This document shows, in pieces, positions 4,807 through 57,981 of a stretch of DNA of 64,000 nt. The stretch lies in contig NZ_SZWE01000002.1 in NCBI RefSeq assembly GCF_009669325.1, positions 310,001-374,000 on the forward strand. Reading direction: 5' to 3'. The stretch is from Roseovarius bejariae. Lineage in GTDB: Bacteria > Pseudomonadota > Alphaproteobacteria > Rhodobacterales > Rhodobacteraceae. The translations under genes and the position numbers were made by a program. How positions within the stretch are numbered: position 1 is the first letter of the stretch; each line of letters starts with the position of its first letter. The notes under the pieces were generated by a model that saw nothing but the letters and a program-made list of their open reading frames with translations, was not told the DNA's origin and did not search any database.

Positions 4807-4922
4807 GGGATTCGCCGCGTTGTTGCCGGGGGCAGGGTAGGGGATTCCCGGCGGTTTGGAAGGGGGAGGGGCGAATCGGTGCCAACCCTTTGGTTAACAA
4901 GGAAAATTCCACTCTGTATCAC

Positions 4923-4955
4923 GTCGGCAACACGTCGGTATCGCATCGGTATTTT
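4923..4955. promoter_or_regulatory. 11-bp phased direct repeats (array 1)
   Basis: Three units read GTCGGCAACAC, GTCGGTATCGC and ATCGGTATTTT, with the TCGG core starting exactly every 11 bases (4923, 4934, 4945). A weaker unit, CTCTGTATCAC, precedes them. Direct repeats at one helical turn are typical binding sites of OmpR/PhoB-family response regulators. It lies upstream of the minus-strand metallophosphoesterase-terC pair. A second array with the same core is at 57938-57981. Confidence 0.5.
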
Positions 4956-4993
4956 TTCCCGCATCCCCCGGACTTACCAGGGCGAGCGGTGAT

Positions 4994-5040
4994 TTTTGTA
5001 CGAAACGTACGCAAGTTTTGTACGGTTTGATTTTTCGTGC
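4994..5040. repeat. GTACG-rich intergenic element, divergent copy
   Basis: Contains TTTGTACGAAACGTACGCAAG and then TTTTGTACGG, with GTACG cores at 4998, 5007 and 5020. It shares the CGTACG and GTACGAAA words with the regular triad elements at 27724-27801 and 55890-55967, but the spacing differs, so it may be a degenerate relative or chance. Confidence 0.35.
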
Positions 5041-5219: not shown

Positions 5220-6203
5220 CTACTTGAGGCGGCGCCGTCCAGCTGAAAGATGAGGGTCTTCCGGGCGAGCTGCGGTAAGCGACCGGGCGAGTCGGTTCAG
5301 TTCACTGCGGCGGCTGACACCGGTACGGGTGAGAACGGCCTCGCAATGGCGCCGGACGGTATTCGGGCTGATGCCCATACGTGCTGCGGCCTCCTTGGTC
5401 GATAGGCCATCCAGCAAACAATGCGCAGTGTCCGTCTGGCGCTTCGTAAGGCCGAAACTTTCGGCCAGTCGGGCCGCCAGCGTTGCTGCATTCGGTGGCG
5501 AAATAGAAAGATACCCAGCATCCGGACCCGGCAACGGCAGGTTCAGAAACGCTCCGGTCCCGTTGTTGTCGCCAAGCTGGCCATCCTGAAGGGTCACGTT
5601 CATATCGCTTTCAACGATGGCGCGCTGGAGACGTTCGAAATTGCGGGCCTGCCGGTCCAATGCCTCGAAGCTATGGACGAAGGCCGGCAACAATAGATTT
5701 AGAACGATTTCCGCCCTCCCCCCGGCGAAAGACGGGGCATCGGCATTCGAATAACCCATTGCAAAGACGGCCTCACCCACGGCGAGGCGTGTCGTCATGC
5801 CGACGACGTGGTTCATGCCCGCGGGACGGAAAGCTTCACGGTGGAAAGCGGCGTTCTCGATCACGGCTCGCCTGGCAAAGGCGCTTTCGTGGTATACGCC
5901 GCTACCCATTTGCCGTCTGGTCAGGTTGATATTGTCGAGGTCCGGGTCGGTCGACCGTATATTGCCGTCGCGATCCACCCCGGCAAAGGTCCGAAAAAAG
6001 TACTCTTCGATCTGAGGCCCCGCGTTCCAAGTCACCAACAAGGGTGTTCCCTCGTTCAGCCATGCCGCCATGGCCGCATCCGCGTGTAACAGATCCGCAA
6101 CCTCCGCGAGGATAGCTTCACCGCTGCCCGGATCTGCCTCGAACGTCAGAAGACGTCTTTGGATGTCGGCGACCTTAAGGGCGTGTTGCAATCCGAGTTC
6201 CAT
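5220..6203 (-). CDS. LuxR-family transcriptional regulator
   Basis: A DNA-binding regulator of about 327 residues. A C-terminal LuxR-type helix-turn-helix (about residues 250-305) reads LTKRQTDTAHCLLDGLSTKEAAARMGISPNTVRRH and continues with VLTRTGVSRRSEL. The N-terminal 230 residues resemble no sensor domain I can name and lack a receiver aspartate pattern. The open frame extends to 6311, but that would overlap the divergent VWA gene; the ATG at 6203 has AGAGG just upstream and is preferred. It is divergent from the five-gene exported operon and is the obvious candidate regulator of it. The palindrome GGGCA-AA-TGCCC at 6233-6244 lies between the two starts. Confidence 0.82.
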   Translation of the reverse strand: MELGLQHALKVADIQRRLLTFEADPGSGEAILAEVADLLHADAAMAAWLNEGTPLLVTWNAGPQIEEYFFRTFAGVDRDGNIRSTDPDLDNINLTRRQMGSGVYHESAFARRAVIENAAFHREAFRPAGMNHVVGMTTRLAVGEAVFAMGYSNADAPSFAGGRAEIVLNLLLPAFVHSFEALDRQARNFERLQRAIVESDMNVTLQDGQLGDNNGTGAFLNLPLPGPDAGYLSISPPNAATLAARLAESFGLTKRQTDTAHCLLDGLSTKEAAARMGISPNTVRRHCEAVLTRTGVSRRSELNRLARSLTAARPEDPHLSAGRRRLK

Positions 6204-6232
6204 CCTCTGACCCCTAACATGTTCATAAAATA

Positions 6233-6244
6233 GGGCAAATGCCC
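6233..6244. promoter_or_regulatory. Small palindrome between LuxR-type gene and exported operon
   Basis: GGGCA-AA-TGCCC is a perfect 5-bp inverted repeat in the roughly 98-base divergent promoter region. A dimeric LuxR-type protein could bind it. The short arms make chance possible. Confidence 0.25.
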
Positions 6245-6301
6245 CATGTCCGCGCGATTTCATGCTGTCACGGTGATTGAAAAAGACTTGAGGAGAGACA
6301 T

Positions 6302-7597
6302 GTGTTTGCAAATCGTTTGATGACTGGATTGGTCGGGCTTGCCGCGCTGACAGGCTCAGCCGTGGCGCAGGATGAGAGCGGAACGATGATCGTTCTCGAC
6401 GGGTCGGGCAGCATGTGGGGGCAGATCGACGGCACCCCGAAGATCGAGATCGCGCGTGACGCCATCGGCACGATGCTGGCGGACTGGCCTACCGGACGCC
6501 AGCTTGGCCTGATGGCCTATGGCCATCGGCGCGAGGGCGATTGCAACGACATCGAAACGTTGATGTCTCTCGGTCCGCTTGACCGCGACGTGGTCGAGGC
6601 TGCACTGAACGATATCACTCCGCGCGGCAAGACACCTGTCGGCGCGTCGGTGCGTGCCGCCGCCGAGACGGTCGGCAACAGTGGTTCCGTCGTTGTCGTG
6701 ACTGATGGCCTGGAGAATTGCGGGGCGGACCTCTGTGCATTGGGCGAGGAGTTGGCGGCCTCTAGCTCAGGCTTCACCGCGCATCTCATTGGCTTCGACG
6801 TCGAGGACGCGGATGGCCAGCTTGCCTGCCTCGCTGAGGCGACAGGCGGGCGGTATATGCCCGCCTCCGATGCATCGTCCCTGACCGGCGCGTTGCAAGA
6901 GATCAGTGCGCCCGAGCCGAAGGGGCCGCTTTTTGTTGATGAGTTTGATCGCGCCGAACTCGGCCCGGAGTGGACGATCGAACACCCGGACCCATCCGGA
7001 TTTATCGTCGATGCAGGCGTTTTGGTCACCATGACCGTCGAGCCCGGTTACATGGGCGATGCCAAAGATCAGCCGAATGTCTTTCGTTGGACGGGGGCCA
7101 AATTTCCAGAGGGGGATTGGGATCTGAGCGCCGATTTCACCGCCCGGATGGGGGAGGTGCAGACGCTTGGCGGTCGGCGTGCCATCGTTCAGGTCGGTCG
7201 CCACGCCGATGTGGACAACACGATTTCCGCTTATGTCTATCGGCAGGGGAATTCGAATGATGATCTGTGGCTGCGGCTGCGGGCGATGTCAGGCGGCACC
7301 GAAACCCGCGCCGAGGTTGAGATTGCTGGGGATACGCGCGGTTACGATCTGGCGCAGATCCTTAGGGATTTCGAGGAAAAGGGCGCCCGTCTGACCATTT
7401 CGAAACGCGGCCGCGACTATGTCGGACGTTTGTCGCTAAATGGATGGACCTTACAAGACGGCGGTCCCGAGGTCATCGAGACTGATCCGATCCAGATTTT
7501 GCGCACGCGCGGCGATCCGGCGCTTTTTGCCGGCACGCTGGGGTCTGAACAGACCGTCGCCGAATTTGACCGTATCGAGATCGTAGAGGTGGAGTGA
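6302..7597 (+). CDS. Exported VWA-domain protein with C-terminal beta-sandwich-like region
   Basis: First gene of the exported operon, 431 residues. It starts at GTG with AGGAGA five bases upstream. The signal peptide MFANRLMTGLVGLAALTGSAVAQ leads to a von Willebrand A domain (about residues 27-200). All MIDAS elements are present: D33-G-S35-G-S37 in VLDGSGSMWG, Thr in GKTPVG, and Asp in VVTDGLENCG. Metal-dependent protein binding outside the cytoplasm is therefore likely. From about residue 208 (FVDEFDRAELGPEWTIEH) to the end, the sequence looks like a concanavalin-like or DUF1349-like beta-sandwich. There are four cysteines, fitting an oxidising compartment. The stop overlaps the next start. 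The specific partner is unknown. Confidence 0.85.
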   Translation: MFANRLMTGLVGLAALTGSAVAQDESGTMIVLDGSGSMWGQIDGTPKIEIARDAIGTMLADWPTGRQLGLMAYGHRREGDCNDIETLMSLGPLDRDVVEAALNDITPRGKTPVGASVRAAAETVGNSGSVVVVTDGLENCGADLCALGEELAASSSGFTAHLIGFDVEDADGQLACLAEATGGRYMPASDASSLTGALQEISAPEPKGPLFVDEFDRAELGPEWTIEHPDPSGFIVDAGVLVTMTVEPGYMGDAKDQPNVFRWTGAKFPEGDWDLSADFTARMGEVQTLGGRRAIVQVGRHADVDNTISAYVYRQGNSNDDLWLRLRAMSGGTETRAEVEIAGDTRGYDLAQILRDFEEKGARLTISKRGRDYVGRLSLNGWTLQDGGPEVIETDPIQILRTRGDPALFAGTLGSEQTVAEFDRIEIVEVE

Positions 7598-9648
7598 TGC
7601 CGGGCAAGACTATCTTCAGGACTTTCGCTTGGGCTGGCGCTGTCTGCGTCGGCACGACCCTCGGTGCAGTGGCGCAGCCCTGCGGCACAGCCGCCGATAC
7701 AGACTCAGCCGCCCTTTATCCCTTGCCGCAAGATGCTCAATGGGGATTTGCCGGGCGCGATGGAGAATGGCGCCTCGCGCCCGAGTGGCGACAGGTTAGG
7801 CCCTTCTCGGAAGGTGTCGCGGCCGTCGAAACCGCCGATGGCTGGGGGCTTATCAACCGCGACGGCGCTTATATCGTGGACCCGGGCGCGCAGGATGCCG
7901 ACCGGGTCGTGGTGTCGGGACAGACCTATGCGCTGTCACCGTACAAGCCCATGTCACAGGGATGCAGCGCCGCAACCCCCGTTGATGGGGTTGCCCACTA
8001 TGTCACGGCCAACGGCGATACGTGGACGCCGCCGGGGCTGTCGGACGAACGGGTCCTCGATCTGGGCAGCTTTTCCGAAGGTTTGGCATGGGCGCGCGTG
8101 ACGCGCGGCAAATACTCGGCCGTCGGCTGGATCGACACCAAGGGCGACTGGGTCATCGAGCCTGAATTCGCTGATGGTGGCAACTTCTCGGGCGGGCGCG
8201 CCCCGGCCGCCATGAGCACCGAGAACTGGGGCTACATCGGCCCCGACGGCGATTTGGTCTTCCCCCGCAAATTCATCTTGAAGGCTGCCAGTCGTTACGG
8301 GTCGGACCTCGCGCCGGTGCGATTGGACAATCAGGCCGGCTTCATGGGGGCGGATGACTGGGCCATTCAAGACGTCACCATGTCGGATGGGCGCAAAGTT
8401 GACATCCGCGCCGCCGGGCGCTTTGCCGAGGGTCGTGCGGCGGTTTTGCCCGGGCCCGTCTGGATCAATCCGGAGGGGCAGGTCACGGTTGCGCCGCAGA
8501 CCGGCGCAAGGTTGTCGATCTGTAACGAATCCCGCCTCCCGGCCTACCAGGACGGGTTGTTGCCGCTGGTCGTGGGAAATGGAACGAACATCTGCGGCAA
8601 CACGCCCGAGATACGGTATGAGGGCCCCGGCGATCCACGCAGTGGACCGGCGCAAATGCTCTGGCTGCTGCCTTGGGACAACGACAAGCTGGTATGGCTG
8701 GACCGTGAGGGGCGGACCGTCATCGATTCCGCCGCTTGCCGCCGCGCGCCCGGTACCCTGGCCCTGCCCGTAGAAGCCGACGGCGGCGGGTTGGCCGACG
8801 GGGCCTACAGCATCACCCTGTCTGGCATGGTCGAAGGCGAGTCCGGACCATACCGCGCGGACGCGCCCTGCAACCGCTCTGCGTTCAAGATGGACGGCAA
8901 CACGGCAACGAATGCGAACGGGCCGTGGGCTTTGTCCCTGTCCGGCGAGGGCAACTGGCAGGGCATGCCCGTGAACCTCAGCCTCAGCATCGGCCTGCCC
9001 GCGAGGCTTGGACCGGGTGACCACGCGGTCCAAGATCCGATGAACGATGCAGCCGTGTCTGCCTATTTGTGGATGAGCGTGCAGGACGTCGGCCCAAATG
9101 CAGAGCAACCGGCGACGTATACATCGTCGGGCGGCGGCATGCTGACGCTTGAGAGCCGTGGAGAGGCGATCACCGGCTCTTTCGAAGCAACGATGGTGTC
9201 ACGCGATGCATCGGAGGATACAATCGCGGTCAAGGCCGATTTCAACGCGATTCCCTACACGCGCGGCCCCGAGGTTACCATGGTCGAGACAACCGGCGCC
9301 GTCACAGCACTGGACGAGTCGATGCCCGATGATCCGCTGATCAACTTCTTCACCCCCGCGAATGCCGTCGAGGAAAATGACAGGCTGGTGCTGTCGCTGG
9401 GTAAGTTCGGTCCCAAGCTGGAGCTGGGTTTTCCCACTGGATACAGCGGGGCGTTCACCGCCGGACCCGAGGCTTCGGTGTCGATCTCTTTCGCAGGCGT
9501 GCCTGTTCGCGCCGAGGGCCGCCTTGAGCGCAATGATGGCCGCCTGTCCGGCGACGTTACTGCAAAACTGGACGCGCATGACCAGGTGGACGGCGCAGGC
9601 AGCGTGACGCTGCGCTTCGCCGAGATTCCGATCGAGAACGGCGAATGA
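7597..9648 (+). CDS. Exported WG-repeat protein
   Basis: A 683-residue exported protein. ATG at 7597 overlaps the previous stop (TGATG); a GTG one codon earlier is an alternative. A signal peptide ends near GAVAQPCG. The N-terminal half has several WG-type repeats: QWGFAGRDGEWRLAPEWRQ, GWGLINRDGAYIVDP, VGWIDTKGDWVIEPEF and NWGYIGPDGDLVFPRKF. These beta-rich units usually mediate binding. The C-terminal half (about 400-683) is beta-rich with no family I recognise. Cysteines at the start and middle suggest disulfides. It overlaps the next gene by ATGA. Its role is unknown; by context it probably works with the VWA and protease proteins of this operon. Confidence 0.8.
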   Translation: MPGKTIFRTFAWAGAVCVGTTLGAVAQPCGTAADTDSAALYPLPQDAQWGFAGRDGEWRLAPEWRQVRPFSEGVAAVETADGWGLINRDGAYIVDPGAQDADRVVVSGQTYALSPYKPMSQGCSAATPVDGVAHYVTANGDTWTPPGLSDERVLDLGSFSEGLAWARVTRGKYSAVGWIDTKGDWVIEPEFADGGNFSGGRAPAAMSTENWGYIGPDGDLVFPRKFILKAASRYGSDLAPVRLDNQAGFMGADDWAIQDVTMSDGRKVDIRAAGRFAEGRAAVLPGPVWINPEGQVTVAPQTGARLSICNESRLPAYQDGLLPLVVGNGTNICGNTPEIRYEGPGDPRSGPAQMLWLLPWDNDKLVWLDREGRTVIDSAACRRAPGTLALPVEADGGGLADGAYSITLSGMVEGESGPYRADAPCNRSAFKMDGNTATNANGPWALSLSGEGNWQGMPVNLSLSIGLPARLGPGDHAVQDPMNDAAVSAYLWMSVQDVGPNAEQPATYTSSGGGMLTLESRGEAITGSFEATMVSRDASEDTIAVKADFNAIPYTRGPEVTMVETTGAVTALDESMPDDPLINFFTPANAVEENDRLVLSLGKFGPKLELGFPTGYSGAFTAGPEASVSISFAGVPVRAEGRLERNDGRLSGDVTAKLDAHDQVDGAGSVTLRFAEIPIENGE

Positions 9649-10262
9649 TCCGGGCGGCTCTCCTCGTGCTCGCCCTCCCGACCGCCGTGCAGGCGCAAGG
9701 GCTGGATAGTGTCTACACCAGCTACGACTGGGCCGAGGATTGCCAGATGCTGGCGCAGGACGTGCCGCCGGACGAAGCGGGTATGGGTTTTCAGCTTGTC
9801 TGTCCCGGTCCGAACGGGATGCACCTGATGCTGACCAAGGGCGATGCCCGGATCTCGATGGATTACGGCAGCACGCCCGAATTCGGCCCGTGGGAAAGTT
9901 TCGCGCCATTCAATTCGGTGCACGATACCGTGGAATGGCGCCGACAACCGTTGAACGGCGAAATGCAGCCTTTCGCCACCATCCACCGATGGATCGTCGG
10001 GTCCGCCCAGGATGACCGCGCGCTTCTTATCATCAGCACCGTGGCCACGTCGCCCGGCGCGGAAAGCTGCATGGTGGGCTTTATCGACACCACCAACACG
10101 CCCGACGCCAATGCACTGGCCCGCGAGGTGGCCGATCGTTACGCACCCGGTTTCGTCTGCGGCAACGCCCGGGTGCGGGGATTCGGCTATGTTGCCCTCG
10201 AAACCCCTGTGCCGCGCCGCGTTCCCTCACATCACAACACAGCGACAGGAGACCATCCATGA
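9645..10262 (+). CDS. Small exported protein of unknown function
   Basis: A 205-residue protein with the signal peptide MIRAALLVLALPTAVQAQ. The mature part is about 185 residues, with four cysteines (EDCQ, LVCPG, ESCMV, FVCGN), enough for two disulfides. I recognise no family. It overlaps the genes on both sides by ATGA, indicating tight translational coupling in the exported operon. The C-terminal 20 residues are polar and proline-rich, and the coding end contains the next gene's start region. Confidence 0.7.
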   Translation: MIRAALLVLALPTAVQAQGLDSVYTSYDWAEDCQMLAQDVPPDEAGMGFQLVCPGPNGMHLMLTKGDARISMDYGSTPEFGPWESFAPFNSVHDTVEWRRQPLNGEMQPFATIHRWIVGSAQDDRALLIISTVATSPGAESCMVGFIDTTNTPDANALAREVADRYAPGFVCGNARVRGFGYVALETPVPRRVPSHHNTATGDHP

Positions 10263-10939
10263 TACGCCCCTTTGCCGCCGCCGTCCTGGCCACCCTTGTC
10301 AGCGCCGCGAGTGGCCATGCCGAAGGCCGCATCAGCTTTACCGCCAAGGCCGGAAGCGCCGGTGAGATGACGATGACGGAACGCTGGAAGGGCGATGCCC
10401 TGCGCACCGATATCGAAGGCATGGACGCCTACATGATGATGCGCGACGACACCGTCTATTCGATCATCTCGATGGCGGGGCAGATTACCGTCATGGACCT
10501 CGGACAGATGAAGGATATGCCGGGGGCGGCGTCGGGCCAAGCTCCGACGCAGAATCAATCCGGCGTCGTGTTCCCCGAGACGATCGAAACCGTGCGCGAG
10601 ATCGGCGAGACCCGTGAGATCGCCGGTATTAACGGCGACGTCTACGAGATCGAGTGGATCGACAACAGCGACGAGCCGCAGACAGACACGGCCGTGCTGA
10701 CCGACGATACCCGCCTGCTGGAGCATCAGGCGCTCAAGACGCAACTGGTCCGGACCATCAGCAACGAAGAGCCCAATGCGCTTTTGATCGAGCTTCAGAA
10801 GCGCGGCCTCGCCGCGCTGTCCTTCGGGGATCGCTTTCTGGTTACCGAGGTCGGTGACGATGCCGGGCCCGCCGGCGATTTCGAACTGCCGGCCGAGCCC
10901 GTGGACTTCGGCAACATGATGAATATGGGCAACCAGTGA
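10259..10939 (+). CDS. Exported DUF4412-like protein
   Basis: A 226-residue exported protein with the signal peptide MIRPFAAAVLATLVSAASGHA. The mature sequence runs GRISFTAKAGSAGEMTMTERWKG, then YMMMRDDTVYSIISMAGQITVMDL. This methionine-rich beta pattern resembles DUF4412/LolA-like periplasmic proteins, which bind hydrophobic ligands in some families. That assignment is from pattern only. The C-terminus is acidic and ends in MMNMGNQ. ATGA overlaps the previous gene, and GTGA overlaps the next. Confidence 0.65.
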   Translation: MIRPFAAAVLATLVSAASGHAEGRISFTAKAGSAGEMTMTERWKGDALRTDIEGMDAYMMMRDDTVYSIISMAGQITVMDLGQMKDMPGAASGQAPTQNQSGVVFPETIETVREIGETREIAGINGDVYEIEWIDNSDEPQTDTAVLTDDTRLLEHQALKTQLVRTISNEEPNALLIELQKRGLAALSFGDRFLVTEVGDDAGPAGDFELPAEPVDFGNMMNMGNQ

Positions 10940-13854
10940 GGGACCGGGGCCCACATTACGCTGGTCTCGTCCGCCGAGGGGCAATGGCGCTGGCCCTGTG
11001 CCTGGCCGCACTGCCGCTGCATGCGCAAGACACCTGCGGCCCCGAAGACCCGCCGCCGGTCCCGCTGTGCTCGGTCGGCGGCATGATAGAGGCGGTCAAC
11101 CCGGAACACACCCTCGATGTTTTCGGCAACCTCAACCCGGACGCCTTTTCTGGCGGTGCGAATGCCGATTTGATGCCGGGCCAGGCCAGTCTGACCCTGT
11201 CCGGCGGGATCAGCGCGGGCGGCGCGGCCTGTGCGCGCCATGTTGCGGCCAAGCGCATAGGGGGAACACGCGGCGTGCCTGGTCTCGACCAGGGGGCGGT
11301 CGATTTCATCGAGGAGATGTCGGGCGAAGACATAAATGTTCCGCAGGCCAGCGGCGGCACACGGCGTGCGGTCTTCGACATATTCAGCCCCAACCTGATC
11401 TCGTACCAGGGTGGCGGCCTCGGGCAACCGCTTGGGTATCGGCATGGCGGTGTCGGTGGCTGGCCGCGAAACAGCGGTGCGCATTTGACCATCGCGCTGA
11501 CCGATGCCGGGCCGGGCGATCTGCGGGCCGGTCAAAGCTACGAGGCGCGCGCCGTCGGCAGCGATGGAGACGGCGATCCGGCGGATATATTTACCGCCTG
11601 GACCGGGCAGATCCGCCCGCGACCATATTCGCCGCCGAATGACGAAGAGCAACGCCGCGAACAGGAATTGGAAAAGCGCACCTGCCACGCCTTGCGCGAA
11701 GCGTTTCTGGAGACCCTCGACCAATCAGCCGTCCCGCTGGATGCGACAGTGGGACGGCAGGCCAGAGACATGGATTGCGATATGGATGGCGTCGGGCAAG
11801 CGGGCACCCGTACGCAGGCCGCCGGGGGCACCCTGTCGGGTATGGTCCATATCGAGCGGATCACAGACAGCAAGGTGATCGGTCGGTTCGATCTCTCGGG
11901 TACGGCCCGGATCGAACGCGAGCGACGGACATGGAGCCCCCGAGGCCCCGGCCGGGTCGATATCGACAGCGACGACGGCGACGAAGCCTTGCGCGTGACC
12001 GGGCGGTTCGCGGCACCAAACATGCGCAACATGGGCTTTGCCCACCCCGGTCTTGAAGTCGCCCAAGCGCCTTCGGATGGCGCCGCCTCGACCGCGGAAC
12101 TGCGCCTGATCGCGCACCGGCCCGCCCGCGACGAAAAGAACCTCCCCTGGGATGACCCGGGCATCCGACTCACCTTCGACCGTCCGCTCGACCCGGCTTC
12201 GGTCACGCCTGCGGCCATCAAGCTGGAATTCGGTCTGGCCAACGGCCAGGGCGGCACCGTCATGGCCCCGATCAAGACCCGCCCGCGCCTGGCGGGCAGC
12301 GATACCGTGGTCGTCACACCGCAAGACCCGATGCGGGACGGAGTGCGCTACCGGGTGACGGTTCGCGCAGGACCGTCCGGCATAAGGGGTGCGGAAGGCG
12401 AACAGATGGCTGTCGATCAGGCATGGGGCTTCGAAACGATGGTCGATCTGGATGACAACGAATTCATGAACACAGGGCTTGCATCGCATCTCGATTGGCG
12501 TGAAGGCGTGGAAAGCGACACCATCCAGGTCGCGACAAACGCACCGTTGGTCCGCGGCAAACCCGCCGCCATCCGCATTTATCCCAAGTGGCGCCCCGAT
12601 CCGCAGATCGCTCCGGGCTGGCAGGTGACAGAGTTCAGGGCCCATGTCCGGGCGCGCCCGGCCTTCGACCCGGAGGCGCCGCTGCTCGTGCCCGAGCGCC
12701 GCGATCTACGCCTCCGCCGGCCGGATATGTTCACCGACGAGGAACGCCGCAAAGGCGAAAACAGCGTTACTTTGTTTGGCTGGACCCCCGAATACGAAGA
12801 AATCGCGGCATTGCGCGCCGAGATCGAACCGGTCCGCGACTGCGAGGAGTCTCCCCGAGTCTTCTCCGGGGTGGAGTCGCTGGACTGGGATCCGCTCGAC
12901 CGCGACCTGTCGCTTGGATATGTCTTCGCCGAAGTCGGCCCCTGGGCCGATGGTGTGCCCCCCGGGCGTCGCCAGGAAGGCGCGCAGGCCGCACAGTCAG
13001 CCGAGACCTTCATCGAACAACTCTTCCCGGTAGGCGAAGCGCGGATCGAACCGGGACCCGCCGTGCCCTTCTCTCCCGATTTCGCGGAGGACCTTGCGGC
13101 CACCATACGCGAAATCGCCATGGCCGAGTCGCTGGCCGGCACTCTGGACGACTCCGTACCGGAGGACTGGCTGGACTCGCTTGACGCCTATGACGGCAAC
13201 AGCATGTCACTCCTGCGCGCGGCCAAAGGCGCGCTCAGCGGCATTGGCCTCGCCGATCCGCTCTACCGCCGTGGCGATATCCGGCGCACGATCCTGCGCC
13301 ACGCGCACGACGCATTGAACGCGGCTGGCGCCTATGGCGATTTCGATGCGGTCGTCGTGTTCATGCCCTATGACTGGCTGCAACTGCTTGGCGTGGCGAA
13401 CTGGGACATCGGCCCGCGATTCATGTGGCCCGATGTTGACCAGCCAATCACCTTCACTAGGCCAGTCATCGGCATGAGCCTCACCGGACCGGACAGCGGC
13501 AAACCCGGGATTCCATCGCTCGGGACAATCACCCACGAGGTCGGGCACGTCTTCGGGCTGGAACACCGCCCCGCTGTCGCGACCGCCGCCGAACGCAGCC
13601 GTGTCTGCGACGCGCTGGAAGGTACGCTCATGGACGGGATCGAGGGTTTGCGGATCGCCCCAAGCGGCGGCCGTGGCGCGGTCAAGTCTTCCGAAGACGG
13701 GAACGCGGAAAAGAAAGGGGAACTCCTGTCGCTGATGTTCCCCTGCGCACGAGGCGCGAAGCCAAGCCTGTTCATCATGCAGGACCACTACGCGAAACTG
13801 CTCGAAAACTTACGCCCGGGCGCATTTCAGGTGCCGCTGCGCGGCGCGCCGTAG
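10936..13854 (+). CDS. Large exported metzincin-like zinc metalloprotease with Ig-like domain
   Basis: A 972-residue exported protein, last gene of the operon. GTG at 10936 overlaps the previous stop. The signal peptide ends near LPLHAQ. Residues about 390-500 look like a bacterial Ig-like (Big_5) domain: IRLTFDRPLDPASVTPAAIK followed by YRVTVRAGPSGIRG. The zinc site is HEVGHVFGLEH (H867, E868, H871, H877), the full HExxHxxGxxH metzincin motif. Candidate Met-turns follow in GTLMDGI (M899) and SLMFPC (M934). Eight cysteines fit disulfide bonding. It is likely secreted or periplasmic and able to cut protein. I cannot place it in a named metzincin family. Substrate and maturation are unknown; other operon members could be targets or partners. 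Confidence 0.82.
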   Translation: MRDRGPHYAGLVRRGAMALALCLAALPLHAQDTCGPEDPPPVPLCSVGGMIEAVNPEHTLDVFGNLNPDAFSGGANADLMPGQASLTLSGGISAGGAACARHVAAKRIGGTRGVPGLDQGAVDFIEEMSGEDINVPQASGGTRRAVFDIFSPNLISYQGGGLGQPLGYRHGGVGGWPRNSGAHLTIALTDAGPGDLRAGQSYEARAVGSDGDGDPADIFTAWTGQIRPRPYSPPNDEEQRREQELEKRTCHALREAFLETLDQSAVPLDATVGRQARDMDCDMDGVGQAGTRTQAAGGTLSGMVHIERITDSKVIGRFDLSGTARIERERRTWSPRGPGRVDIDSDDGDEALRVTGRFAAPNMRNMGFAHPGLEVAQAPSDGAASTAELRLIAHRPARDEKNLPWDDPGIRLTFDRPLDPASVTPAAIKLEFGLANGQGGTVMAPIKTRPRLAGSDTVVVTPQDPMRDGVRYRVTVRAGPSGIRGAEGEQMAVDQAWGFETMVDLDDNEFMNTGLASHLDWREGVESDTIQVATNAPLVRGKPAAIRIYPKWRPDPQIAPGWQVTEFRAHVRARPAFDPEAPLLVPERRDLRLRRPDMFTDEERRKGENSVTLFGWTPEYEEIAALRAEIEPVRDCEESPRVFSGVESLDWDPLDRDLSLGYVFAEVGPWADGVPPGRRQEGAQAAQSAETFIEQLFPVGEARIEPGPAVPFSPDFAEDLAATIREIAMAESLAGTLDDSVPEDWLDSLDAYDGNSMSLLRAAKGALSGIGLADPLYRRGDIRRTILRHAHDALNAAGAYGDFDAVVVFMPYDWLQLLGVANWDIGPRFMWPDVDQPITFTRPVIGMSLTGPDSGKPGIPSLGTITHEVGHVFGLEHRPAVATAAERSRVCDALEGTLMDGIEGLRIAPSGGRGAVKSSEDGNAEKKGELLSLMFPCARGAKPSLFIMQDHYAKLLENLRPGAFQVPLRGAP

Positions 13855-14126: not shown

Positions 14127-17100
14127 TTACTCGAACTCGACCAGAAGATCCTTGGCGTCGATCTGCCCGCCGGGTTGGACATGCACGGCCTTGACCGTGG
14201 CGTCGCGTTCGGCGTGGATGCCGGTTTCCATCTTCATCGCCTCGATGGTCAGCAGCATGTCGCCTTCCTTGACCGTCTGGCCCGCGCTGACCACGACGCT
14301 TGCCACCACGCCGGGCATCGGCGCGCCGACGTGATCGGGGTTGCCGCTTTCGGCCTTGGGCCGGGCGGCGGTTTCGGCCTTGACCTTGCGGTCGGGCACG
14401 CGGATCACACGGGGTTGACCGTTGAGCTCGAAAAAGACCTTCACGTCGCCTTCTTCCGATGTTTCGCCGACGGTTTGCAGGCGGATTTCGAGGATCTTGC
14501 CAGGGTCGATCTCGGCCGAGATTTCCTCGCCCGGTTCCATCCCGTAGAAGAAGGTCCGTGTGGGCAGGGTACGCACCGGGCCGTACATCCGGTGGCGGCC
14601 CATGTAATCGAGGAAAACCTTGGGATACATCAGGTACCCGTTGAGGTCTTCGTTATCCACCGCCTTGCCTTCGAGTTGGTCGACAAGGTCTTGTCGGGCG
14701 CCTTCAAGGTCGACCGGCTCAAGGTGTTTGCCGGGGCGTTCGGTGTTGGGCTTTTCGTCCTTGAGCACTTTCTTGACGATGCTCTCGGGGAAGCCGCCCG
14801 GCGGTTGGCCCAGATTGCCGCGCATCATGTCGATCACGGAGTCGGGGAAGGCCACGTCGGTTTCGGGGTCTTCGACCTGCTCGCGCGTGAGGCCTTGGGA
14901 GACCATCATCAGCGCCATGTCGCCCACCACCTTGGACGAGGGGGTGACCTTGACGATATCACCGAACATCTGGTTCACGTCGGCATAGGTTTTCGCCACT
15001 TCGGGCCAGCGATCTTCAAGGCCAAGCGAGCGCGCCTGCGCCTTGAGGTTGGTGAATTGCCCGCCGGGCATTTCGTGCAGGTAGACCTCGGACGCGGGGG
15101 CGGCGAGGCCGGATTCGAACGCCACGTATTGGGCGCGGACGTGTTCCCAGTAGTTGGAAATCTCGCGGATGCGTTCGATGTCCAGCCCGGTGTCGCGCCT
15201 GGTGTGCATCAGGGCCTCGGTGATGGAGCCGAGGCAGGGTTGCGAGGTGCCGCCCGAGAAGGCATCCATGGCCGCGTCCACCGCATCGACGCCCGCCTCG
15301 GAGGCGGCGAGGATGGTCGCCCCGGCGATGCCGGAGGTGTCGTGGGTGTGGAAGTGGACAGGAATGTCCAGCTCGTCCTTGAGCGCCTTGACCAGTTGCG
15401 TGGCGGCGGCGGGTTTCAGCAGGCCCGCCATGTCCTTGAGGCCGAGGATATGCGCGCCCGCGGCTTGCAGGTCTTTTGCCATGCCGACGTAGTATTTCAG
15501 GTCGTACTTGGCGCGGTCCGGGTCGAGGATATCGCCGGTATAACAAATCGTGCCTTCGCAGATCTTGCCCGAGTCGATCACCGCATCCATGGCGACGCGC
15601 ATGTTATCCACCCAGTTGAGGCTGTCGAAGACGCGGAAAACGTCGACGCCGGTGTCCGCGGCTTGCCGGACGAATTCCTGCACCACGTTGTCGGGGTAGT
15701 TGGTGTAGCCCACGCCGTTGGAGGCACGCAAAAGCATCTGCGTCAGCAGGTTGGGCATGGCGGCGCGCAGGTCGCGCAGGCGTTGCCACGGGCATTCCTG
15801 CAAGAAGCGGTAGGCCACGTCGAAAGTGGCGCCGCCCCAGCATTCGACGCTGAAGAGTTGGGAGAGGTTGGCCGCATAGGCGGGCGCCACCTTGACCATG
15901 TCGATCGAGCGCATGCGGGTCGCCAGAAGCGATTGGTGACCGTCGCGCATTGTGGTGTCGGTCAGAAGCAGGCGGTCCTGATCGAGCATCCAGTCGGCCA
16001 CGGCCTTGGCGCCCTTGTCGTCCAGCAGGGTCTTGGTGCCGGGGGCCGGATCGGCGATGAGCTTCGGTGGGCGGGGCGGTTTGACGTCGGCGGGCTTGGC
16101 ACGGCCCGTGGTTTCGGGGTGCCCGTTCACCGTGATGTCGGCGATATAGGTCAGAACCTTGGTACCCCGGTCGCGGCGCTTGGAGAAATTGAAAAGCTCG
16201 GGTGTCTCGTCGATGAACTTGGTGGTGTATTCGTTGCTCAGGAAGGTGGGGTGCTTGAGCAGGTTTTCGACGAAGTTGATGTTGGTCGACACGCCGCGAA
16301 TACGGAATTCGCGCAGGGCGCGGTCCATCCGGGCGATGGCCGCCTCGGGGGTTTGGGCGTGGGCCGTGACCTTGGTCAGCAGGCTGTCGTAATACCGCGT
16401 GATGACCCCGCCGGAATAGGCAGTACCGCCATCCAGCCGGATACCCATGCCGGTGGCCGAACGGTAGGCGGTGATGCGGCCATAATCGGGGATGAAGTTG
16501 TTGAGCGGGTCTTCGGTGGTGATCCGGGTTTGCAGGGCGTGACCGTTCAGGGTGACGGCTTTCTGATCGGGCTTGCCGGTGGCCTCTTGTATGGTTTTGC
16601 CCTCGGCAATCTTGATCTGGGCCTGCACAATGTCGATGCCGGTCACTTCCTCGGTGACGGTATGTTCGACCTGTACGCGGGGGTTCACCTCGATGAAGTA
16701 GAAATTGCCGGATTCCATATCCATCAGGAATTCGACGGTGCCGGCGCATTCGTAATTGACGTGCTTGCAGATCTTGTAGCCCAGCTGGCATAGTTCTTCG
16801 CGCTGGTCATCGGACAGGTAGGGCGCGGGGGCGCGTTCCACGACCTTCTGGTTGCGCCGCTGGACCGAGCAGTCGCGCTCGTAAAGATGGTACATGGCCC
16901 CGTGCTTGTCGCCGAGAATCTGAACCTCGACGTGGCGGGCGCGGGTGATCATCTTTTCCAGGTAACCTTCGCCGTTGCCGAAGGCGGCTTCGGCCTCGCG
17001 GCGGCCTTCCATGACCTTTTCGGCCAGTTCCTCGGGCTTGAGAATCGGGCGCATACCGCGGCCACCGCCGCCCCAGCTTGCCTTGAGCATGAGCGGGTAG

Positions 17101-17564
17101 CCGATCTCGGACGCCTCCTTGGCGATGGCCTCCATGTCGTCGCCCAGAACCTCGGTGGCGGGGATCACGGGCACGCCCGCCTCGATCGCGACCTTGCGGG
17201 CGCTGGCCTTGTCGCCCAAGGCGCGCATGGTTTCGGCCTTGGGGCCGATGAAGGTGATGCCGTTTTCGGTGCAGGCATCCACGAAATCGGGGTTTTCCGA
17301 CAGCAGGCCATAGCCGGGGTGGATGGCGTCGGCGCCCGATTCCCTGGCAACGCGGATGATTTCCTCGATCGAGAGATATGCGGCAACCGGGCCCATGCCT
17401 TCGCCGATGCGGTAAGCCTCGTCGGCCTTGAAACGGTGCAGGCCCAGTTTGTCCTCTTCTGCGAAGACGGCGACGGTGCGTTTGCCCATTTCATTGGCGG
17501 CACGCATGATGCGGATGGCAATTTCGCCGCGGTTCGCGATCAGGATTTTCTTGAAGTCAGCCAC
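14127..17564 (-). CDS. pyc: Pyruvate carboxylase
   Basis: Biotin-dependent, ATP-driven carboxylation of pyruvate to oxaloacetate, the anaplerotic reaction feeding the TCA cycle. The product is 1145 residues, the normal length for the single-chain enzyme. Domains in order: biotin carboxylase (about 1-455, starting DFKKILIANRGEIAIRIMRA, with ATP-grasp MLKASWGGGGRGMR), carboxyltransferase (about 540-810, with TMRDGHQSLLATRMRS), PYC linker, and biotinyl carrier (EAMKMET; the Lys carries biotin). GTG at 17564 is chosen because VADFKKIL matches the family N-terminus and AAGGGGG lies upstream; the frame extends further without family similarity. It is a single transcription unit on the minus strand. 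Confidence 0.96.
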   Translation of the reverse strand: MADFKKILIANRGEIAIRIMRAANEMGKRTVAVFAEEDKLGLHRFKADEAYRIGEGMGPVAAYLSIEEIIRVARESGADAIHPGYGLLSENPDFVDACTENGITFIGPKAETMRALGDKASARKVAIEAGVPVIPATEVLGDDMEAIAKEASEIGYPLMLKASWGGGGRGMRPILKPEELAEKVMEGRREAEAAFGNGEGYLEKMITRARHVEVQILGDKHGAMYHLYERDCSVQRRNQKVVERAPAPYLSDDQREELCQLGYKICKHVNYECAGTVEFLMDMESGNFYFIEVNPRVQVEHTVTEEVTGIDIVQAQIKIAEGKTIQEATGKPDQKAVTLNGHALQTRITTEDPLNNFIPDYGRITAYRSATGMGIRLDGGTAYSGGVITRYYDSLLTKVTAHAQTPEAAIARMDRALREFRIRGVSTNINFVENLLKHPTFLSNEYTTKFIDETPELFNFSKRRDRGTKVLTYIADITVNGHPETTGRAKPADVKPPRPPKLIADPAPGTKTLLDDKGAKAVADWMLDQDRLLLTDTTMRDGHQSLLATRMRSIDMVKVAPAYAANLSQLFSVECWGGATFDVAYRFLQECPWQRLRDLRAAMPNLLTQMLLRASNGVGYTNYPDNVVQEFVRQAADTGVDVFRVFDSLNWVDNMRVAMDAVIDSGKICEGTICYTGDILDPDRAKYDLKYYVGMAKDLQAAGAHILGLKDMAGLLKPAAATQLVKALKDELDIPVHFHTHDTSGIAGATILAASEAGVDAVDAAMDAFSGGTSQPCLGSITEALMHTRRDTGLDIERIREISNYWEHVRAQYVAFESGLAAPASEVYLHEMPGGQFTNLKAQARSLGLEDRWPEVAKTYADVNQMFGDIVKVTPSSKVVGDMALMMVSQGLTREQVEDPETDVAFPDSVIDMMRGNLGQPPGGFPESIVKKVLKDEKPNTERPGKHLEPVDLEGARQDLVDQLEGKAVDNEDLNGYLMYPKVFLDYMGRHRMYGPVRTLPTRTFFYGMEPGEEISAEIDPGKILEIRLQTVGETSEEGDVKVFFELNGQPRVIRVPDRKVKAETAARPKAESGNPDHVGAPMPGVVASVVVSAGQTVKEGDMLLTIEAMKMETGIHAERDATVKAVHVQPGGQIDAKDLLVEFE

Positions 17565-17742
17565 GGGCCATGTCCCCCTTGGTGCGGTCTTTTGATCTGG
17601 AGGGGGTGTTCGCGCTGCGGCGCGGCACCCCCGCGCGGAACTTGTAGGATTTGTGAAAGGTTTGCGCAATCCGGCTTAGTGGGTATTTGCCGGGTGGGGA
17701 AAATTCCCGTCCGTGTGGGTAGGGGGTGCTACCCGGGTGGCG

Positions 17743-32057: not shown

Positions 32058-32125
32058 GCGGTAATCGCGATCTGACGTGAAAGAATCCTTGCGCGTGGCT
32101 GCGGCCTGAGACAGAGTTTTTCCAT

Positions 32126-32300
32126 CAAGGTGCTGCACTTCGGTCATTCGGGGTGCGGAGAATTGGGAAGCCGGTGAGAGACCGGCGCTGCCCCCGCAAC
32201 GGTAAGGTTGGGGGCAAGGGCATACCGCCACTGGACCGCTGAGCATGGTCCGGGAAGGCGCCCTTGCCAGACCCGCCAAGCCCGGAAACCAGCCTTGTGT
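32126..32300 (+). ncRNA. Cobalamin (AdoCbl-type) riboswitch
   Basis: The B12-box region is clear: GGGAAGCCGGTGAGAGACCGG is followed by CGCTGCCCCCGCAACGGTAA, and the 3' side has AAGCCCGGAAACCAGCC. CAAGG at the 5' edge pairs with CCTTG at 32293-32297 to close the P1 stem. A further complementary pair, TGACGTGA (32073-32080) with TCACGTCA (32300-32307), could extend the closing helix. It lies upstream of a small ORF at 32407. High cobalamin should reduce expression of that ORF. Confidence 0.93.
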
Positions 32301-32406
32301 CACGTCAAGCCGCGGGGGGCGGTGTGGGCGCGCGTCATGGACCGCTTCCCGTTACAACCCCTTGCCCCAATCCGGCCCGGGGTGTGGCCGGGGAAGAGAA
32401 GTAAAA

Positions 32407-57937: not shown

Positions 57938-57981
57938 GCCGGTATCAGGTCGGTAAAATGTCGGTATTGCGTCGGTGTATC
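57938..57981. promoter_or_regulatory. 11-bp phased direct repeats (array 2)
   Basis: Four units, GCCGGTATCAG, GTCGGTAAAAT, GTCGGTATTGC and GTCGGTGTATC, start exactly 11 bases apart (57938, 57949, 57960, 57971). The core matches array 1 at 4923-4955, and both lie upstream of a minus-strand gene (here DUF2852, about 150 bases away). OmpR-family response regulators bind such repeats. Confidence 0.6.

Follow-up and report, generated by a model that had tools for sequence, protein, structure and literature searches.

Five adjacent genes for predicted exported proteins, preceded by a divergent LuxR-type regulator gene, raise the question of whether they form one functional unit and which of their products belong most closely together. 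The locus lies in a 64,000-nucleotide stretch of the Roseovarius bejariae genome (contig NZ_SZWE01000002.1, positions 310,001 to 374,000 of the forward strand), here called the window, and coordinates are counted from its first letter. The operon encodes, in this order, a VWA-domain protein, a WG-repeat protein, two small proteins named s1 and s2 in this study, and a large metalloprotease (Table 1). We give an even chance to the explanation that the six genes constitute a cassette that moves horizontally, is controlled by the regulator and serves an extracytoplasmic metzincin, in which s2 would be the dedicated partner of the protease and the other exported products would be accessory binding modules. 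No paper on this gene set was found in the literature, searched largely outside subscription journals, which agrees with the remark of a first-pass annotation of the same DNA that no described system has this composition.

Gene set and coding evidence

The first-pass annotation, made from the sequence alone, had described five genes joined by start/stop overlaps, and direct reading of the open reading frames (ORFs) bore this out: five plus-strand genes occupy 6302-13854, each overlapping the next stop to start, by TGATG between the VWA and WG genes, by ATGA at both the WG/s1 and s1/s2 junctions, and by GTGA between s2 and the protease. Separate internal promoters had been named as evidence that would speak against a single operon; one sigma-70-like promoter was found inside it, compared with 1.7 expected by chance. 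The divergent LuxR-type gene was likewise recovered, with a GerE helix-turn-helix (HTH) domain above the cut-off (PF00196, 36.6 against 23.5 bits). Its ORF, 5220-6311, opens at a TTG inside the start of the VWA gene, and relatives support the ATG at 6203, which leaves a divergent gap of 98 bp.

The six genes are real and not chance ORFs, because nonsynonymous divergence (dN) is far below synonymous divergence (dS) in all six against the corresponding locus of Roseovarius sp. MMSF_3281 (L026; dN 0.014-0.031, dS 0.074-0.189) and in the five operon genes against the loci of the same-genus genome G029 (L019) and of Sediminimonas qiaohouensis DSM 21189 (L027; dN 0.08-0.42, dS 0.80-1.70, dN/dS 0.10-0.32 for both together). 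These values indicate that all six genes are under purifying selection.

A signal peptide had been proposed for each of the five operon products, and our own signal-peptide heuristic, which defines the term export-type start used below, marks all five and leaves the regulator unmarked. Of the 54 caller-predicted genes of the window, it marked 10; the VWA protein and the protease were missed there, supposedly through later called starts.

Conservation as a cassette

The order VWA-WG-s1-s2-protease recurs in three further genomes, with identities of 94-97% (L026), 52-86% (L019) and 58-65% (L027); L026 and L027 were the sole two loci given by the protease scan of named genomes. L026 and L019 keep the divergent regulator, of which L027 showed no homologue. 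At the DNA level, the window and L026 share one block of 95.4% identity, which extends 130 bp beyond the regulator at one end and 43 bp beyond the protease at the other. Comparison of the 64-kb window with the L026 flanks of ~4.2 and 10 kb gave no further match at E 1e-5, and a sensitive search found outside the block only a short dispersed element (70.8% over 89 bp). Since this block covers just the six genes, the locus has the appearance of a cassette, and since the order recurs in three other genomes and one homology block spans the regulator and the five genes, these behave as a unit.

Identity to G029 varies along the cassette (regulator 74%, VWA protein 86%, WG protein 67%, s1 ~55%, s2 57%, protease 52%), and dS runs from 0.80 for the VWA gene to 1.70 for the protease gene; these differences suggest recombination within the cassette. 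The s1-s2 overlap is lost in both L019 and L027. The stretches at the two edges of the cassette, left and right, were found to have no 9-mers in common, and the right flank of L026 was not found in the window's genome by a DNA search, which had no positive control.

Coupling of s2 to the protease

The closest association within the set is that of s2 with the protease. In all seven s2 loci, the s2 gene adjoins a protease gene, and in six of them the s2 stop overlaps the protease start (GTGA or ATGA), the two genes being 47 bp apart in the seventh (L020). Strong matches of both proteins coincide in the same four of the 36 genus genomes covered by both scans. All seven s2 sequences have an export-type start, and the six that were aligned share a conserved FELPAxP...GxM stretch at the C-terminus. 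By sequence, s2 and the protease are thus the tight core of the gene set.

The coupling was followed over 17 protease loci, namely those of the window, L026, L019, L027, G004 and G012, six in G050, three on plasmids and two in G519. Truncated copies (Martelella lutilitoris and a Dysgonomonadaceae record) and weak matches (G312, G482, G693, G728, G270 and seven others from the phylum scan) were left out of this set. A partner-family gene lies directly upstream on the same strand in 13 of the 17, belonging to the s2 family in seven and to another family in six, and 12 of these 13 partner proteins have an export-type start, the exception being L025. The catalytic core of the protease and such a coupled neighbour with an export-type start are what varies least.

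The window s2 has no Pfam match. A likeness to LolA/DUF4412-type proteins is not claimed, as no such Pfam match appeared at E up to 10 for any of six members. When the exported families were profiled against each other, no significant relation emerged; the lowest E values were 0.013 (C-terminal half of the WG protein against the plasmid small family described below), 0.016 and 0.026, and none is claimed as homology.

The closest parallel is CpaA-CpaB of Acinetobacter, in which, according to the report on that pair, a secreted metzincin with immunoglobulin (Ig)-like domains likewise has a dedicated neighbouring partner gene (PMC7542363). There, CpaB, encoded beside CpaA, is described as necessary for the enzyme to be stable and secreted, with a C-terminal tail that occludes the active site (PMC7542363). 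By analogy, the FELPAxP...GxM stretch of s2 is a candidate for such an active-site-blocking tail. CpaB is reported to be membrane-anchored (PMC7542363); the start of s2 is read by the heuristic as signal-peptide-like. CpaA and the window protease are unrelated by sequence as far as seen, CpaA being absent from the best 60 of the 68 PDB matches of the protease, and s2 has no PDB match. To our knowledge, the CpaA system has no counterpart of the VWA protein, the WG protein or s1.

The protease

The 972-residue protein had been named an HExxHxxGxxH protease, and the motif withstood alignment: H867, E868, H871 and H877, together with the Met-turn candidate M934, which is judged by sequence position alone, are invariant in 11 of 11 full-length and 13 of 13 core sequences. 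The glycine of HExxHxxGxxH/D is kept in 12 of 13 proteases and is alanine in L082. By this motif, the protease is a metzincin, sharing the zinc site and Met-turn candidate with archaemetzincin, reprolysin/ADAM and M66 enzymes. Unlike the metzincin families with Pfam models, it is sub-threshold, falling below every Pfam peptidase cut-off (Reprolysin_5, 13.9 against 27 bits; M66, 12.4 against 20.6), and it has a conserved IxxxR...KSxxxGN segment between the zinc motif and the Met-turn. The Pfam matches are a little stronger in its relatives, reaching 4.6e-5 for Reprolysin_5.

Further conserved parts are a Big_5 Ig-like domain, present in 13 of 13 relatives, and a segment around Q531-W552 with the consensus QVxRDAPLVxGKPTxxRxYxxW. 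In a profile search of PDB sequences, the top match was the Ig-like part of TssM (8ssi, 1.2e-4), and the best peptidase was archaemetzincin 2x7m (1.8e-4), with other archaemetzincins at 0.0045 and ADAM17 at 0.014.

The VWA, WG and s1 proteins

The VWA and WG-repeat identities given at first reading are upheld by Pfam models above their cut-offs (PF13519, VWA_2, 42.7 against 27 bits; PF14903, 79.7 against 25.6 bits), and the residues of the metal-ion-dependent adhesion site (MIDAS) are present in six of six aligned VWA sequences. The C-terminal part of the VWA protein and the WG protein from about residue 386 onward have no Pfam match at E up to 10. From what is known of their families, the VWA and WG proteins are likely binding modules, and they may bind partners of the protease.

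The description of one small protein as cysteine-rich went too far: the window s1, which has no Pfam match, has four cysteines only (C33, C53, C142 and C172). These are kept in five of five aligned sequences, so two disulfides are plausible, and general family knowledge makes s1 probably a disulfide-bonded accessory.

Separable parts and distribution

The first-pass annotation had taken the five proteins as a single machine and proposed their co-occurrence in other genomes as a check. The joint set was found in four genomes including the window's, with recurrent order and one homology block; the idea of a fixed five-part composition held only in part, since the WG, s1 and VWA genes are missing or elsewhere in some relatives and homologues are partly scattered. 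In G004, WG-s2-protease spans two contig ends, s1 is missing and no VWA gene lies in front; a VWA gene of other make-up is found ~9 kb beyond the protease. G012 has s2-protease alone. G050 belongs to a different family and carries six paralogues of the protease, of which one is accompanied by s2 (L020) with nothing else of the set beside that pair, one is preceded by a 377-aa gene of the other small family (L025), and one (L024) lies near an orthologous VWA gene (69%) and its divergent regulator (47%). Relatives of s1 occur on seven plasmid records, and the two surroundings that were examined contain no WG, s2 or protease gene nearby.

Scans of the genus found the protease in 4 of 36 genomes, strong s2 matches in 4 of 40 (plus four weak ones near 5e-4), the WG protein in 3 of 40, and the full-length VWA protein in 2 of 40, its VWA domain type being present in 32 of 40. 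The larger genome samples were scored on few candidates per genome (two in the family and class scans with the protease, four in the phylum scan, five with the wider protease profile and three with the WG protein), so their counts are lower bounds. Of 325 genomes of the family, at least 3 have the protease (that of the window, G153 at 1.5e-24 and G312 at 4.4e-5). In the class, at least 6 of 385 matched: the window's genome, G050 and G519 did so strongly, and the other three lay near 1e-3. The phylum gave at least 8 of 299, with the window's genome as the sole strong match and the next at 6.5e-8. One of 17 genomes of the family of G050 has the protease, and the wider profile found it in at least 3 of 228 genomes of the window's family, namely the window's genome, G153 and, at 3.8e-5, G270. 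The WG protein was found in 10 of 325 family genomes, own included (next best 1.3e-49), and WG-repeat matches occur also in other genera and phyla. As judged from these scans, the protease is rare and patchy.

A parallel plasmid subtype

Distant relatives of the window protease were found on three plasmids. The gene order is regulator, membrane protein, VWA, SH3-like, small protein and protease in Roseinatronobacter sp. S2; regulator, Yip1-like, SH3-like, small protein and protease in Croceibacterium; and kinase, response regulator, HTH gene, SH3-like, small protein and protease in Qingshengfaniella. The label SH3-like denotes a sub-threshold Pfam match (0.01). The subtype has in common with the window the protease family, a small gene directly upstream of it, a GerE-type regulator nearby and, in Roseinatronobacter, a VWA gene. 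It differs in that SH3-like and membrane or Yip1-like genes replace WG and s1, an unrelated small family replaces s2, and the protease is often missing.

Homologues of the plasmid small protein also precede the proteases of G050 (L025) and G519 (L079, L080). Against a strict pairing, this protein occurs on 41 plasmid records and the subtype protease on 5, and the fetched stretches of Pseudosulfitobacter, Mameliella and Martelella sp. AD-3 have the small protein with no adjoining protease. VWA and SH3-like genes occur with no protease in the fetched stretches of Paracoccus aminophilus, P. seriniphilus, Sulfitobacter dubius and Maritalea; Martelella lutilitoris has both with a truncated protease beside an IS5 element; and the Nitratireductor stretch contains regulator, SH3-like and small genes only.

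The two subtypes are linked by two observations. On a Pseudosulfitobacter plasmid, an s1 homologue (tblastn 25%, 6e-7) directly follows a response regulator gene, amid a kinase, a molybdopterin-domain protein and the Roseinatronobacter-type membrane protein family; and in one G004 protein a segment of the SH3-like protein and a VWA domain are joined to the C-terminal domain of the window VWA protein.

Three further features of these plasmid loci were recorded. A sensor set of histidine kinase, response regulator and small molybdopterin-dependent oxidoreductase recurs with plasmid modules or s1 (L084, L086, L104, L106, L108). In two genera (L110 and L107), the genes next to a VWA/SH3-like module encode a cation:proton antiporter, an HTH protein and a universal stress protein. 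The Qingshengfaniella protease is split into two overlapping ORFs (L084:7269-11043), and intact relatives exist.

Regulator and candidate operator

None of the 21 Pfam families matching the regulator at E up to 1 is an autoinducer-binding domain, and it therefore does not qualify as a LuxR protein that binds acyl-homoserine lactones. Its orthologues are divergent from the VWA gene in L026, L019 and L024, and the regulators of the window and plasmid subtypes align in the HTH only. The intergenic region contains a 37-bp block with a palindrome (Table 1) that differs by one base in L019 and two in L026 while the flanks diverge; it was not seen before the VWA gene in L024 or L027. It has a single match within the window and none in 100 shuffles, and its 12-bp core also occurs once in an unrelated stretch (L069). 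This block is a candidate regulatory site.

Neighbouring sequence

Adjoining the cassette is a dispersed non-coding element of ~150 bp with iterated TCGGTAT units. By blastn it resembles L019:14572-14726, which occupies the same place (3e-20), L026:3256-3343 (5e-5) and L066:3224-3340, which adjoins a WG gene (6e-4); elsewhere in the window there is a weaker stretch of this type. TerC-type and calcineurin-like phosphoesterase genes lie upstream of the cassette. Other neighbouring features are given in Table 1.

Table 1. Coordinates of the cassette, its parts and neighbouring features in the window
Feature	Coordinates	Strand	Evidence
Regulator, GerE/LuxR-type HTH, divergent; N-terminal domain without Pfam match	5220-6203	-	PF00196 3.4e-9; start re-set to 6203
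VWA protein, export-type start, MIDAS (DGSGS, TP, DG); C-terminal domain without Pfam match	6302-7597	+	PF13519 9.7e-11
WG-repeat protein, export-type start; C-terminal half without Pfam match	7597-9648	+	PF14903 1.6e-22
s1, 205 aa, export-type start, four conserved cysteines	9645-10262	+	alignment of 5
s2, 226 aa, export-type start, coupled partner gene of protease	10259-10939	+	alignment of 6; gene overlap with protease
Protease, 972 aa, metzincin-type metalloprotease, export-type start	10936-13854	+	catalytic residues invariant 11/11 and 13/13
Big_5 Ig-like domain of protease, residues 387-501	12094-12438	+	E 6.7e-8
Zinc site HEVGHVFGLEH, residues 867-877	13534-13566	+	
Met-turn candidate M934	13735-13737	+	sequence position
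Block shared with Roseovarius sp. MMSF_3281 (L026), 95.4% identity	5090-13897	.	DNA comparison
Conserved 37-bp intergenic block, palindrome GGGCA-AA-TGCCC, candidate operator/promoter of divergent pair	6212-6248	.	
TCGGTAT-unit element	4871-5024		blastn
Weaker TCGGTAT-type stretch	57942-57976		
Pyruvate carboxylase-type gene, directly downstream of cassette	14127-17669	opposite	
Cobalamin riboswitch	32111-32311		114.8 bits

Discussion

From the gene order, the export-type N-termini, the conserved catalytic residues, the s2-protease coupling and the joint inheritance, we infer the following course of events. The GerE/LuxR-type protein would bind the conserved intergenic block and turn on a single transcript, and all five products would be exported. 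Co-translated with the protease, s2 would act as its dedicated partner, most likely as a chaperone that also holds the active site shut until delivery. Placing the enzyme on a surface or substrate may then fall to its Ig-like and N-terminal domains together with the VWA, WG and s1 proteins, and the cassette as a whole may pass between genomes.

Several results weigh against this proposal. Four of the 17 protease loci (L021-L024, all in one genome) show no homologue of either partner family within the stretch fetched. Sequence and profile comparison detects no relation between these two families, and s2 found no match among PDB sequences up to E 5. The structure models of the protease and s2, built from three sequences each, are unusable (mean pLDDT 32.5 and 33.9).

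The same arrangement could reflect loose co-expression, in which independent exported proteins (an adhesin-like VWA protein, a WG protein and a protease) share one envelope or salt stress regulon and form no physical machine. Subsets of the gene set found alone, the commonness of VWA domains in the genus, the wide spread of WG-repeat matches, the five fetched stretches of plasmid relatives with VWA or SH3-like genes and no protease, and the two plasmid modules adjoining a cation:proton antiporter and a universal stress protein all fit such a regulon. We nevertheless regard it as doubtful, as the s2-protease coupling is kept in six of seven loci, the six-gene block is sharp-edged, and the order VWA, other module, small protein, protease recurs in the distant subtype.

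Two more specific functions are improbable. An antibacterial exoprotease with s2 as a self-protecting immunity protein would account for a large protease with a small coupled neighbour, both with export-type starts, and for the sporadic distribution; we give it little credence, because no toxin family was among the matches of the five proteins, none of them matched a PADLOC defence family at E 0.01 (the regulator having two weak matches, 0.0043 and 0.006), and four protease paralogues lack such a neighbour. It is equally improbable that the protease trims a protein of its own cell, in the envelope or secreted, upon a signal through the regulator, with the VWA and WG proteins as substrates or scaffolds: regulators are often near (LuxR-type, or histidine kinase-response regulator in plasmid relatives), but L027 showed no homologue of the regulator, and in L107 the annotation has none right next to the module. 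A phage origin and a known defence system were also considered and were dropped because viral contigs, phages and PADLOC gave nothing: 32 viral stretches fitted the search pattern and none encodes a relative, and phages, searched with s1 only, gave no match.

Returning to the cassette for a metzincin and its partner, we tentatively propose a broader possibility, which we hold with rather less than even confidence. The window would then contain one subtype within a so far undescribed family of mobile envelope systems of Alphaproteobacteria. In these, a regulator, either GerE-type or two-component, would drive an exported VWA protein, a recognition module that is exchangeable (WG or SH3-like), a small partner that is also exported and, as an option, a giant metzincin. 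Two unrelated partner families would have been recruited independently in front of the protease, as if a co-translated keeper were needed.

The defined gene set, with intact relatives and a compact s2-protease core, offers a test of the rule of a secreted metzincin plus dedicated partner beyond Acinetobacter. It would add a protease family missed by Pfam models and exported families (s1, s2 and the plasmid small protein) that have no Pfam match better than E 0.04. Among Alphaproteobacteria, several of which come from marine, saline or alkaline sources, it would also provide a case of a multi-gene envelope function that seemingly travels as a cassette.

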